The notes under the pieces are model-generated. The model was not told the origin of the DNA. It did no database searches and saw only the letters and a list, made by a program, of their open reading frames with translations. The translations under genes and the position numbers were made by a program. From Microlunatus phosphovorus NM-1 (lineage in GTDB: Bacteria; Actinomycetota; Actinomycetes; Propionibacteriales; Propionibacteriaceae): a DNA stretch of 64,000 nucleotides. The stretch spans positions 744,001-808,000 of the forward strand of contig NC_015635.1 in the NCBI RefSeq assembly GCF_000270245.1, given 5' to 3'. This document shows positions 59,553 to 63,927 of this stretch, in pieces; the first letter of the stretch is position 1, and each line of letters opens with the position of its first letter.

Positions 59553-60851
59553 TCAGGCGAAGACGGTGATGTGCACGTGGTTCTTGTGGTTGGCGGAGTC
59601 GCTGCCGCGGCTGGCCATGTAGCGCCAGCCTTCCTTGTCCCGCTGGATGTTCCAGATGTGCTGGTCCCAGATCACGTAGTTGATGCCGAGCGACTTGGCG
59701 TTGGCCTTGGCCCACAGCGCGACCTCCTTGCCGAGCGCCTTGCCCGCTGCCGTCTTGTACTTCGGGATCATCAGGTCGAGCGCGCGGCCCGAGGGATGGT
59801 CCGGCAGCGGGTCCGGGCGGACGCCGCCGATCGAGGTGATCTGCGGGAACTTCGCCCGGACGGCGCGATGGACCTTGATGGCGTTCGGCTTCAAGCCCTT
59901 CTCCACCGGGTAGGCCGGAATCAAAGGCTTGGTCGTCGACAGATACTGCGCCGTGACCCAGCGCACCGCATTGTCGTAGACGATCTGCATCCGACCGTTG
60001 GTCACCACACCCGTGATGCTGAGCAGGGTGCCGATCCCGACCTCGGTGATCGAGGTGAAGTCGTCATTCGGGGTCGAGCGGATGATCAGGGTCGTGGTGG
60101 CGTACCGAGTGCCGGTGACCTTGGGCAGATTGGGATCGGGGGTGATGGGGCCAGGGTTGGCCGGCGTGGTGAGGTACTGCGCCGTCACCCAGCGGACCGC
60201 GTTGCGGTAGATGATCTGCGCTCGGCCGTTCTGGACCGTGCCGGTGATCGACACGGTGGCACCCTTGGGGATTTCGCCGACCACCTTGTAGTTCGAGCCC
60301 GAGGTCGTCCGGATCAGCAGATCCGCGGTGGCCACCCGAGTGCCCGTGATCGCGGGCAGCCCGGTGCCGCGCTGCAGATACTGGGAGGCGATCCAGCCAG
60401 TCGTCGAACTGTGTTTCACCTCGGTGTAGCCGCGTGATGCCTTGCCGGTCAGGGTGACGCTGGTGCCGCGCGCCAGCACCCTGATCCGGGGGTACGAGAG
60501 GCCAGGACCCTTGCGCAGATTGACATCGGTGGTGGTGACCCGGGTCTGGTTGGTGGTGGCATCGGGCAGCGACGAGCCGCCCTTGAGGTACTGGCTGGAC
60601 ACGTACGCAGTGCCCGAACCGAACTTGATCTTGGTCCAACCCCCGGAGATCGAGACGGCGGTCACGGTCTGGCCGCGATAGAGCCCGCCGACGATCTTCG
60701 CGCTCGTGCTCGGCTTCGAGCGGATGTTCACAGCCGTGGTAGCGGTCATGGTGCTGACGGCGATGGCAGGAAAGACACCGAACCCGGCCACCAGCCCGGT
60801 CATCGCGACGACGGTCGTCGAGACGAGGGCTCTGCGTGTGATGGTGCTCAC
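59553..60851 (-). CDS. Secreted SH3b-repeat protein with C-terminal LAS/VanY-like peptidase domain
   Basis: The 432-residue protein has a signal peptide (RRALVSTTVVAMTGLVAGFG). Four bacterial SH3 repeats follow, each with a TTAVNIRSKPS-, DVNLRKGPG-, DLLIRTTSG- or TLIIRSTPN-type start and an ending such as WIASQYLQ or WVTAQYLT. The C-terminal domain (about 320-432) has GGVRPDPLPDHPSGRALDLM and a final KNHVHITVF. This His/Asp/His pattern is that of VanY/ARB_07466-type peptidases that trim peptidoglycan. GTG at 60849-60851 follows CGGAGA; an in-frame start further upstream would disrupt the signal peptide. Confidence 0.9.
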   Translation of the reverse strand: MSTITRRALVSTTVVAMTGLVAGFGVFPAIAVSTMTATTAVNIRSKPSTSAKIVGGLYRGQTVTAVSISGGWTKIKFGSGTAYVSSQYLKGGSSLPDATTNQTRVTTTDVNLRKGPGLSYPRIRVLARGTSVTLTGKASRGYTEVKHSSTTGWIASQYLQRGTGLPAITGTRVATADLLIRTTSGSNYKVVGEIPKGATVSITGTVQNGRAQIIYRNAVRWVTAQYLTTPANPGPITPDPNLPKVTGTRYATTTLIIRSTPNDDFTSITEVGIGTLLSITGVVTNGRMQIVYDNAVRWVTAQYLSTTKPLIPAYPVEKGLKPNAIKVHRAVRAKFPQITSIGGVRPDPLPDHPSGRALDLMIPKYKTAAGKALGKEVALWAKANAKSLGINYVIWDQHIWNIQRDKEGWRYMASRGSDSANHKNHVHITVFA

Positions 60852-61109
60852 TGGATGTCTCCGTTTCACCGGTGTCAGCCGGGGCTTTGATGGCTCGGCG
60901 TCACTGGTGCGACTTTTGCCACACCAGTCACACAAACCTCAGACATCGCAGGACTCTAAACGTGTCACAACCGTTACCGCAAGATCTGAGTTGCCATTTG
61001 GTCACTTTGGCAAGACGACACGCCGCAGAGATCGCGAAAACTACATTGTTGTTATTCTCAGGTTCGGGTCGTAGCTGGGCGGGCGGATAACATCGGGGCG
61101 GTGATCGCC

Positions 61110-61454
61110 ATGACTGCCGCCGAGTTCGATGAGCTGGTGGCTGAGGCCCTCGACACGATTCCGGAGGAGTTGGCGACCCTGATCGACAACTGCGTGATCC
61201 TGGTCGAGGACTATCCGCCGCCCGATCGTCCGTCGGATCTGCTCGGCCAGTACGAGGGCATTCCCTTGACCGAGCGCGGTGAGTTCTACAGCGGCGTACT
61301 GCCTGACAAGATCACGATCTACCGCCAGCCGACGCTGGCGATCTGCGATGCGTTCGAGCACGTCGTCGAGGAGGTGCACATCACCGTGGTGCACGAGATC
61401 GCGCATCATTTCGGGATCGATGACGTCCGGCTCCACGAGCTCGGCTACGGCTGA
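61110..61454 (+). CDS. Small metallopeptidase-family protein (HEXXH zincin)
   Basis: The 114-residue protein carries the zinc-binding HEIAHHFGIDD at residues 95-105, a form of the extended HExxHxxGxxD motif of metzincin-type enzymes. It matches the widespread actinobacterial family often labelled metallopeptidase (DUF1025). DTIPEELATLIDNCVILVED is the usual start, and LLGQYEGIPLTER the usual middle. Substrate unknown; it is cytoplasmic. I use ATG 61110 because the SD-like GGGGCG is nine bases upstream; GTG 61101 in the same frame is an alternative. Confidence 0.9.
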   Translation: MTAAEFDELVAEALDTIPEELATLIDNCVILVEDYPPPDRPSDLLGQYEGIPLTERGEFYSGVLPDKITIYRQPTLAICDAFEHVVEEVHITVVHEIAHHFGIDDVRLHELGYG

Positions 61455-61505: not shown

Positions 61506-61811
61506 TCAGACCAAGATCACGTACGCCATTGCGGACAGGCAGGCCAGGGAGGCCACCGTGGTCAGCAGCGCTGCGTTGCGTCCGACGGCGGTCTCCGTGG
61601 TCAGTTGGCGGCGCTGTACGCGGCTGCGGATGCGTACGCCCGCCACCAGGGCACCGGCGATCAGCAGCGCGATGCCGACGGCGGCCACCAGTGGAACCGA
61701 GACCTCGGCCAACAGTCGTAGCACGCCCAAGAGGCAGACCACGCCGGCCAGGGTGGTCCGGGTCCAGGCCAGCCGAGTGCGTTCGGCGGGCATCGTCGGT
61801 TCGATGGACAT
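61506..61811 (-). CDS. DUF202 membrane protein
   Basis: The 101-residue protein contains the DUF202 signature PAERTRLAWTRTTLAGVVCLLGVLRLL, with two to three hydrophobic helices after it. The family is of unknown function (YidH-like). It lies just after another DUF202 gene on the same strand with a gap of 22 bp, as these genes usually come in pairs. ATG 61811. It ends the minus-strand operon. Confidence 0.88.
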   Translation of the reverse strand: MSIEPTMPAERTRLAWTRTTLAGVVCLLGVLRLLAEVSVPLVAAVGIALLIAGALVAGVRIRSRVQRRQLTTETAVGRNAALLTTVASLACLSAMAYVILV

Positions 61812-61833: not shown

Positions 61834-62220
61834 CTATACCAGGCCGACCGCGATGATGGCGAGCAGGGCCACGGCAGCCAGGACCCCGGTCAGCAGGGGC
61901 ATGGCCGGTGAAGAGGGAAGCGGTTCGCCGGTACGCATCGCCCGTTCGTGGCGGGTCCAGCGCAAGAACGAGCCGGCCGCGCAAACCAGTCCGCAGACGA
62001 GCAGCAGCAGCGAGACGAGCTTGAGCTCGAATCGGAGCTGTCCGACGGCGTGGGCGAACGCGGCGACACCGGCGCCGGCCGCCAAGAAGCCCAATGAAGT
62101 GCGTATCCAGGCGAGGAAGGTGCGTTCGTTGGCCAGGGAGAAGCGCGGATCGGGCTCGGAGCCGACGCCGTAGACCGCCCGCGGCCAGCGGCGGTCTGCT
62201 TCGGGATCGGTGTCGGTCAC
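61834..62220 (-). CDS. DUF202 membrane protein (YidH-type)
   Basis: The 128-residue protein has SLANERTFLAWIRTSLGFLAAGAGVAAFAH, the YidH/DUF202 hallmark, and three membrane helices. The start is GTG at 62218-62220, overlapping the EamA stop (GTGA), so translation is coupled to that gene and the weak SD is explained. Function is unknown; some family members have been linked to membrane or polyphosphate proteins. It forms a pair with the following DUF202 gene. Confidence 0.88.
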   Translation of the reverse strand: MTDTDPEADRRWPRAVYGVGSEPDPRFSLANERTFLAWIRTSLGFLAAGAGVAAFAHAVGQLRFELKLVSLLLLVCGLVCAAGSFLRWTRHERAMRTGEPLPSSPAMPLLTGVLAAVALLAIIAVGLV

Positions 62221-63104
62221 GACTTGGATGCTACTGGCGTCGCGCGGCGGAGCTTCAGGTTCTGCCCCAGCAGCACCGAGAGCAACACGATGGCGGCGCC
62301 GACGAGTTGCCAGCCGTTGAGCGCCTGGTCGAGTACCACCCAGCCAAGGCCGGCCGCGATCACCGGGTTGAGCAGCGCAAGAAAGCTGACGGCGGTGGCG
62401 GGTAGGCGCTGCAGACCCCAGAACCACAGGCCATAGGCGAGGATTCCGCTGATCAGCACGAGATAGATCAACCCGCCGATGTTGGCGGGTGTCAATGAGG
62501 TGGGCAGGCCTTCGATCGCCAGGGTGAAAGGCAGCAGGGCGAGTCCGCCGAGCAGGAACGTCCACCCGGTGAAGCCGGCCGCGCCCCAGCCGGGTGGGTG
62601 CCCCCAGCGCTTCGTCAGCACGGTGGCAAAGCCCATCATGATCACGCCGACCGTCATTGCGAGAATGCCCCACCCGTCGAGCCGGGCACTGGAGCGCAGC
62701 ACCAGCAGGCTGACGCCCAGGATCCCGAGACCGCCGGCGACGATATCGATCGTACGGATTCCTTTGTGGAGCAGGGGAACCGAGAGGACGACCACGATCA
62801 GTGGGGTCACCGAATTGATCACTGCCGCGACACCGCCGGGCAGCAGATAGGCAGCGATGAAGAGCAGCGGGAAGAACGCCGAGCAATAGAGCACAGACAG
62901 CAGCAGGAACCGGCCCCACCAGCCGCGCGGCGGCCAGGTACGAGTCGCGAGGACGAGCACGAGCCCGGTGGGGAGGGATCGCATCATGGAGGCGAGCATG
63001 GGCCGGCCGGGCGGCAGGAACTGCGTCGTGAGCAGGTAGGTGGTGGCGAAGATGATGGGGGTGAGTGTGGCGAGATAGGCCCATCGGCTGCGGGGATGGC
63101 TCAT
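62217..63104 (-). CDS. EamA-family (DMT) transporter
   Basis: The 295-residue protein has ten hydrophobic helices in two EamA repeats. Features: LTPIIFATTYLLTTQFLPPGRPML at the start, AAYLLPGGVAAVINSVTPLIVVVLSVPLL, and in the second half LLNPVIAAGLGWVVLDQALNGWQLVGAAIVLLSV. These carriers export or exchange metabolites. The ATG at 63102-63104 overlaps the stop of the upstream gene (ATGA), and the next gene overlaps it in turn, so the operon is tightly coupled. Confidence 0.92.
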   Translation of the reverse strand: MSHPRSRWAYLATLTPIIFATTYLLTTQFLPPGRPMLASMMRSLPTGLVLVLATRTWPPRGWWGRFLLLSVLYCSAFFPLLFIAAYLLPGGVAAVINSVTPLIVVVLSVPLLHKGIRTIDIVAGGLGILGVSLLVLRSSARLDGWGILAMTVGVIMMGFATVLTKRWGHPPGWGAAGFTGWTFLLGGLALLPFTLAIEGLPTSLTPANIGGLIYLVLISGILAYGLWFWGLQRLPATAVSFLALLNPVIAAGLGWVVLDQALNGWQLVGAAIVLLSVLLGQNLKLRRATPVASKS

Positions 63105-63811
63105 GCGGCGGAGTGAGTGGCGTCGGGCAGCAGATAGCTGCGGTCGGGCGCGGCAATCCAGGTGGCGCAGGAGCCGAGTGCGTGGGGAGGAACGTATCCG
63201 GCCTGCAGATCGGTACGCGACATCGGCGTTGCTCCGGTGATTTCGGCGATCTGGCGGAGTGCGCCGGGGTCGTCGGGGATGACGACCGGCAGGACGGTCA
63301 GGAGCTGCCGGATGTGATTGACCTCGAACGTGCCGATCAGCTCCTCGCTGATCGCTGGGGCGACGACGACCAGGGGTCGCGAGGTGGGCAGCTGCCGTTC
63401 CAGGACGCCGAGCAGCTCCCGAATCGTGATGATCGGCTCGGTGCTGACCAGAACAGCAGGGTGTCGCAGCACTGACCATCCGGTCGGCTGATCGGTGACG
63501 AGGTCGCGGGAGGCATAGCCGGCGCGGATCGTGGTGACGCCTGGTGAGTCGATCGCAGTTTGGAGCTCGGCGCGTTCCTCGGGGGTCAGGGCCGTTGACT
63601 CGGCGCTGTTCGGCGGGCGGCGGGCCTGTAGCTCGGAGAGGTAGTGCGGAGTGGGGGAGTCGGGAGTGAATCTTGGAATGTCACGCGCGGGTGGCGCCAG
63701 CATCTCGCGTACTCGTCGCTCGTTGGTCCGGCGATCCTTCAACGCACCGAAGACGATCACGGCCACTCCTACGACGAGCACCGCGATCAGCCCGATCTGC
63801 CAGCCCTCCAC
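63101..63811 (-). CDS. Membrane-anchored GroEL apical-domain-like protein
   Basis: The 236-residue protein has one N-terminal membrane helix (residues 7-24) followed by KDRR, which places the rest in the cytoplasm, then a linker to about 85. Residues 90-230 match the GroEL apical domain in order: RAGYAS (96-101), QPTG, IRELLGVLE (130-138), RPLVVVA (145-151), VNHIR (164-168), IAEITGAT (188-195) and ALG (211-213). The equatorial ATPase and hinge domains are missing. GTG 63811 starts it. It leads an overlapping operon with EamA and DUF202 genes. Not a truncated groEL, because the membrane helix and linker are intact. Function unknown; substrate holding at the membrane is plausible. Confidence 0.75.
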   Translation of the reverse strand: MEGWQIGLIAVLVVGVAVIVFGALKDRRTNERRVREMLAPPARDIPRFTPDSPTPHYLSELQARRPPNSAESTALTPEERAELQTAIDSPGVTTIRAGYASRDLVTDQPTGWSVLRHPAVLVSTEPIITIRELLGVLERQLPTSRPLVVVAPAISEELIGTFEVNHIRQLLTVLPVVIPDDPGALRQIAEITGATPMSRTDLQAGYVPPHALGSCATWIAAPDRSYLLPDATHSAA

Positions 63812-63927
63812 GGCGGCCAGCCTGCCACATCGTTGACCTATGTAGCCTGGTCGGACGTAGCTGTGAGCGGCTGAGATCTGGGCGGGTGCTGAGAACGGCG
63901 GTCGGTGCGCGGGATGGGAGGTAAACG

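Follow-up and report, generated by a model that had tools for sequence, protein, structure and literature searches.

The analysed stretch of 64,000 nucleotides (hereafter the window) belongs to the genome of Microlunatus phosphovorus NM-1, which consists of a single 5.68 Mb contig. Close to the right end of the window lies a gene for a stand-alone GroEL apical-domain membrane protein; its location and that of the neighboring genes and features are listed in Table 1. Besides the apical domain, the ORF holds only an anchor and a linker. Two full-length GroEL frames are present elsewhere in this genome, away from the apical gene. The GTG start of the first DUF202 gene (position 62220) was our choice, and its frame is open further upstream. 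The C-terminal part of the exported SH3-repeat protein was given no name by Pfam at E ≤ 0.01. A DnaJC28-type gene (PF09350; 63928-64000, plus strand), divergent from the apical gene, continues in L084, and integrase-like and transposase-like ORFs adjoin the locus just to the right of the window (L084, from ∼10700).

Table 1. Genes and features of the apical-domain locus (window positions).
Feature	Position	Strand	Remarks
Exported SH3-repeat protein	59553..60935	-	PF08239, E = 4.2e-35
Zincin-like metallopeptidase	61101..61454	+	PF06262, E = 1e-31; convergent
DUF202 membrane protein 2	61506..61811	-	PF02656, E = 3.2e-9; starts 22 bases past the end of the first
DUF202 membrane protein 1	61834..62220	-	PF02656, E = 6.2e-16
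EamA-family transporter	62217..63101	-	PF00892, E = 7.4e-34; start overlaps the apical-gene stop (ATGA)
Stand-alone GroEL apical-domain membrane protein	63101..63811	-	236 aa; GTG start, TGA stop
Apical domain, residues 73-235	63107..63595	-	GroEL 173-340 by alignment
Linker, residues 40-72, probably disordered (low confidence)	63596..63694	-	P41, R43, P46, P55-x-Y57
N-terminal membrane helix (∼residues 4-25) and DRR positive flank (26-28)	63728..63802	-	
Probable -10 hexamer CAGGCT	63819..63824	-	7 nt ahead of the start codon

The upstream regions of the homologous genes (described below) share a NANNCT pattern, which was picked after viewing 20 of the 51 upstream stretches. It occurs 4-9 nt ahead of the start in 40 of the 51 members, compared with a 7% background in comparable upstream windows, and looks like the -10 element of a leaderless transcript.

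A Pfam search with the 236-aa protein gave no match at E ≤ 1. The NCBIfam GroEL models do match it, with E-values down to 3.9e-14 and scores far below the curated cut-offs set for full GroEL, and a GroEL chain from the PDB matches residues 74-214 (E = 2.7e-11). The initial annotation, made from the sequence alone, had called the protein a stand-alone apical domain and had proposed a profile-profile comparison and a structure prediction. In the former, hhalign aligned 20 stand-alone proteins with 12 GroELs over 162 columns (99.3%, E = 1.2e-20, 26% identity), residues 73-235 corresponding to E. coli GroEL 173-340. The latter, an AlphaFold2 model built from four stand-alone sequences only, had a mean pLDDT of 73.3 and a pTM of 0.63; GroEL structures were among the AlphaFold2 training data. 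All 50 Foldseek matches listed for this model were of the GroEL/Cpn60 type (best E = 1.3e-12), and full-length GroELs also ranked first in a search against viral models. The predicted fold is that of the apical domain, with target-normalized TM-scores of 0.83-0.84 against the isolated apical fragments 1srv and 1jon.

These matches are confined to GroEL ∼170-340, and the equatorial ATPase domain is absent, as had been claimed. The hinge is affected too: since the alignment begins at GroEL 173 and ends at 340, there is no complete intermediate domain either. The parts of GroEL responsible for the seven-fold ring and the ATP-driven cycle are missing from this protein. Chance similarity or a sequencing artefact was ruled out by the E-values, the hhalign result and the family-wide homologues, while a broken GroEL gene was ruled out by the two full-length GroEL frames and by the position of the stand-alone proteins on a separate side of a tree branch (see below).

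In the AlphaFold2 model, a helix spans residues 3-38 and residues 39-72 have pLDDT values below 50; at this confidence the model lends no support to a linker docked in the groove. Several positions of the anchor and linker are strongly conserved among the 51 members: D26 and Y57 in all, P55 in 50, P41 in 49, R27 in 48 and P46 in 47. Lysine and arginine are commoner behind the helix than ahead of it in 51/51 members, so that, by the positive-inside rule, the domain should face the cytoplasm in an N-out/C-in single-pass protein, which agrees with the orientation proposed initially. The P-x-Y motif of the linker (residues 55-57; 63641-63649, minus strand) is kept in divergent members too and is a possible docking site for a partner. 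In eight hand-picked pairs (58-93% identical) dN/dS values were 0.11-0.50 by the NG86 method, and YN00 gave 0.055 and 0.067 for two of these pairs. The single-helix anchor, the cytoplasmic apical domain and the absence of both the equatorial ATPase domain and the parts that form the ring are each shown or strongly predicted, and we consider it practically certain that the anatomy of the protein is that of a natural membrane-tethered apical domain.

To establish how far this form extends, matches were collected from genomes of increasing taxonomic breadth. Of the 57 family genomes, at least 46 had a stand-alone homologue listed, one of them (G054) being a short frame matched over the apical part only; the eleven genomes with none listed are G020, G022, G025, G031, G032, G038, G040, G044, G045, G051 and G053. 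All 20 genomes of the genus, the window genome included, carry one, in G001 as two pieces. Among the matches listed, none of the 39 order genomes outside the family had a stand-alone form, their matches sitting in long GroEL frames. Among the matches listed for 293 order, 394 class and 396 phylum genomes, the form was found in no other family. The four loci found in genomes with a name comprise one from Microlunatus kandeliicorticis and three from Propionibacteriaceae MAGs. In G156, two stand-alone apical matches (contigs C93 and C71) represent paralogues or contamination. A tree built from 70 apical sequences separated the 51 stand-alone proteins from 18 GroELs and that of E. coli by a branch with 100/100 support and a length of 1.96; program warnings concerned long branches within the stand-alone group and unsettled bootstraps.

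A profile of the anchor and linker matched in 9 of the 394 class genomes (two true matches) and 6 of the 396 phylum genomes (one true match). Of the resulting twelve distinct loci, the ten besides the two true ones were searched with the family profile, G866 being left out. By eye, L057, L058, L060 and L063 belong to a single different kind of membrane protein; among the matches listed, L126 and L125 score only over profile positions 1-55, i.e., the helix and linker. With the full profile, only the window genome and G019 rose above the GroEL level among the matches listed for the 394 class genomes, three of which belong to the family. As this result rests on the matches listed, independent apical-only proteins may exist elsewhere.

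Gene neighborhoods were counted in 36 anchored loci of 40 fetched. The overlapping operon with an EamA gene and two DUF202 genes, as initially described, is present in the window, but it is a local arrangement: EamA follows the apical gene in 5/36 loci and DUF202 in 12/36. The anchored form itself is kept across much of the family. The zincin-like metallopeptidase gene lies on the opposite strand in 21 loci and on the same strand in two, and the DnaJC28-type gene is upstream on the other strand in five. No groES or groEL was present among the neighbor proteins looked at. The most persistent neighbor is the SH3-repeat protein, encoded downstream on the same strand in 31/36 loci, on the opposite strand in one and out of view in four; in two of these four (G010 and G024) an SH3 match is nearby on the same contig. 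In G193, G201 and G248 (g21) the stand-alone protein is present with no SH3 match, while G040, G213, G220 and G285 (g22) have SH3 matches and only two apical matches, taken as two GroELs (up to five candidates scored per genome in both cases). Obligate pairing is therefore unsupported, and the link between the two genes looks positional, because in some genomes only one of the two had a match.

The residues which bind substrate and co-chaperone in the GroEL groove are 199, 203, 204, 234, 237, 259, 263 and 264, together with 222 and 226, according to the accessible part of PMC7289027; the first eight were tested here in the 51 stand-alone proteins (GroEL numbering). Six are mostly hydrophobic: 204 (F45 L6), 234 (L40 I5), 237 (L42 I4), 259 (L34 V5 R4), 264 (V31 A17) and the mixed position 199 (Y12 L11 W9 H8). 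The other two are polar, charged or small: Tyr203 of GroEL corresponds to D17 A12 E7 R5, and Val263 to E24 A16 R5, with Val or Ile in only 5/51 members. In the weighted family, large hydrophobic residues account for only 2% at 203 and 12% at 263. Three positions beside the groove are near-fixed (231 R49, 261 T47 and 265 N51); ranked by entropy among 138 columns, N265 is first, R231 fourth, F204 fifth and T261 tenth, while 199 (rank 99) and 201 (rank 84), on the same surface, are variable. In GroEL, bound substrate can be crosslinked to residues 229, 231, 261 and 201, as stated in the accessible part of PMC1885994. The mean share of large hydrophobic residues is 0.67 for the eight groove positions versus 0.68 for 44 other hydrophobic GroEL positions; groove hydrophobicity is no better kept than elsewhere, and its retention may therefore reflect the fold as much as function. 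Judging from the alignment, the groove is retained but its chemistry is altered, as conserved 204, 231, 261 and 265 occur alongside non-hydrophobic 203 and 263.

The likeliest mechanism, to which we assign a probability of roughly 0.45, is that the protein acts on the cytoplasmic side of the membrane as a selective receptor or holdase for peptides, independently of ATP. Equally tentative is the accompanying scenario of a single event in an ancestor of Propionibacteriaceae that freed the apical domain, with attachment to the membrane and a retuning of the groove, which would now hold particular hydrophobic segments at the cytoplasmic face, those of nascent membrane or exported proteins being one possibility. 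The anchored, cytoplasm-facing domain would bind peptides as a receptor or holdase without an ATP cycle. Since the groove, with Arg 231, Thr 261 and Asn 265 near-fixed and polar, charged or small residues at 203 and 263, appears retuned, it would probably not accept every unfolded chain but only selected segments, e.g., those of membrane or exported proteins as they emerge at the membrane, and the conserved P-x-Y motif could serve for docking of a partner. Homology, fold, the minichaperone-like extent, family conservation, the conserved groove residues and topology argue for this mechanism. Against it stand the missing hydrophobic residues that GroEL requires at 203 and 263, the variability of 199 and 201, the groove hydrophobicity being no better kept than elsewhere, and the lack of a persistent partner naming a client. 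Single apical domains also lack the avidity of the ring.

A promiscuous membrane-tethered holdase, i.e., a natural counterpart to the engineered minichaperone, would fit the domain boundaries, nearly those of the engineered fragments, and the six groove positions that are still mostly hydrophobic. However, most members carry D, E, A or R in place of Tyr203 and Val263, and according to the accessible part of PMC1885994 polypeptide binding by GroEL is abolished when any hydrophobic residue of the groove is made hydrophilic. The suggestion in the initial annotation that the protein works like a promiscuous GroEL fragment thus found no support, and we regard this explanation as unlikely. Position 263 also bears on whether the protein regulates the cell's own chaperonins, either by competing with GroEL for GroES or by drawing GroES, or clients of GroEL, to the membrane. 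Substrate and co-chaperone use the same groove residues (PMC7289027, accessible part) and two full-length GroEL frames occur in the genome, but the rarity of Val or Ile at 263 and the missing groES and groEL among the neighbors make such a role quite improbable.

Reuse of the fold with no chaperone function, as an envelope scaffold or adaptor, perhaps together with the exported SH3-repeat protein, is suggested by the frequency of that gene downstream and by the strong conservation of D201, G205, W218 and S225, which lie outside the groove positions. Considering that the SH3 link looks positional and that three groove-side positions (231, 261 and 265) rank with the best-conserved columns, this explanation seems rather unlikely. 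Fast evolution, long branches and the lack of a known activity would suit a decaying, functionless GroEL fragment, but the single origin, the fixed anchor and linker residues, the promoter element common to 40/51 members and dN/dS below 1 in 8/8 pairs make decay very hard to credit.

If the receptor or holdase mechanism is true, a chaperone-like factor would be added at the actinobacterial membrane, and there would be a class of natural mini-chaperonins that are anchored in the membrane and independent of ATP. A natural family of apical-only membrane proteins offers a test of how far client binding by GroEL depends on the ring and the ATP cycle, and of which groove residues determine selectivity.

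A literature search, whose scope excluded most subscription papers and all preprints, found no account of such a protein, judged by titles and the opening of abstracts; the initial annotation likewise knew of none. With the group I chaperonin GroEL/Cpn60 it has in common the predicted apical fold with its helices H and I, the invariant Asn265 and, for the greater part, the hydrophobic groove; it differs in having no equatorial or complete intermediate domain, in the added membrane anchor, in the polar, charged or small residues at 203 and 263, and in overall sequence (26% identity). Chaperonin-derived domains have been reused outside the standard ring in the eukaryotic chaperonin-like proteins PIKfyve/Fab1 and MKKS/BBS, which are group II (CCT-type) relatives, neither bacterial nor apical-only. 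As far as the literature search shows, isolated apical domains have been described so far only as engineered fragments; the accessible part of PMC9138447 gives these minichaperones as GroEL residues 191-345 and 190-333. The stand-alone protein covers nearly the same stretch with the same predicted fold, and in the model it would fold as a unit with boundaries of ∼191-345; it differs from the engineered fragments in being natural, predicted to be membrane-bound and apparently changed in its groove.
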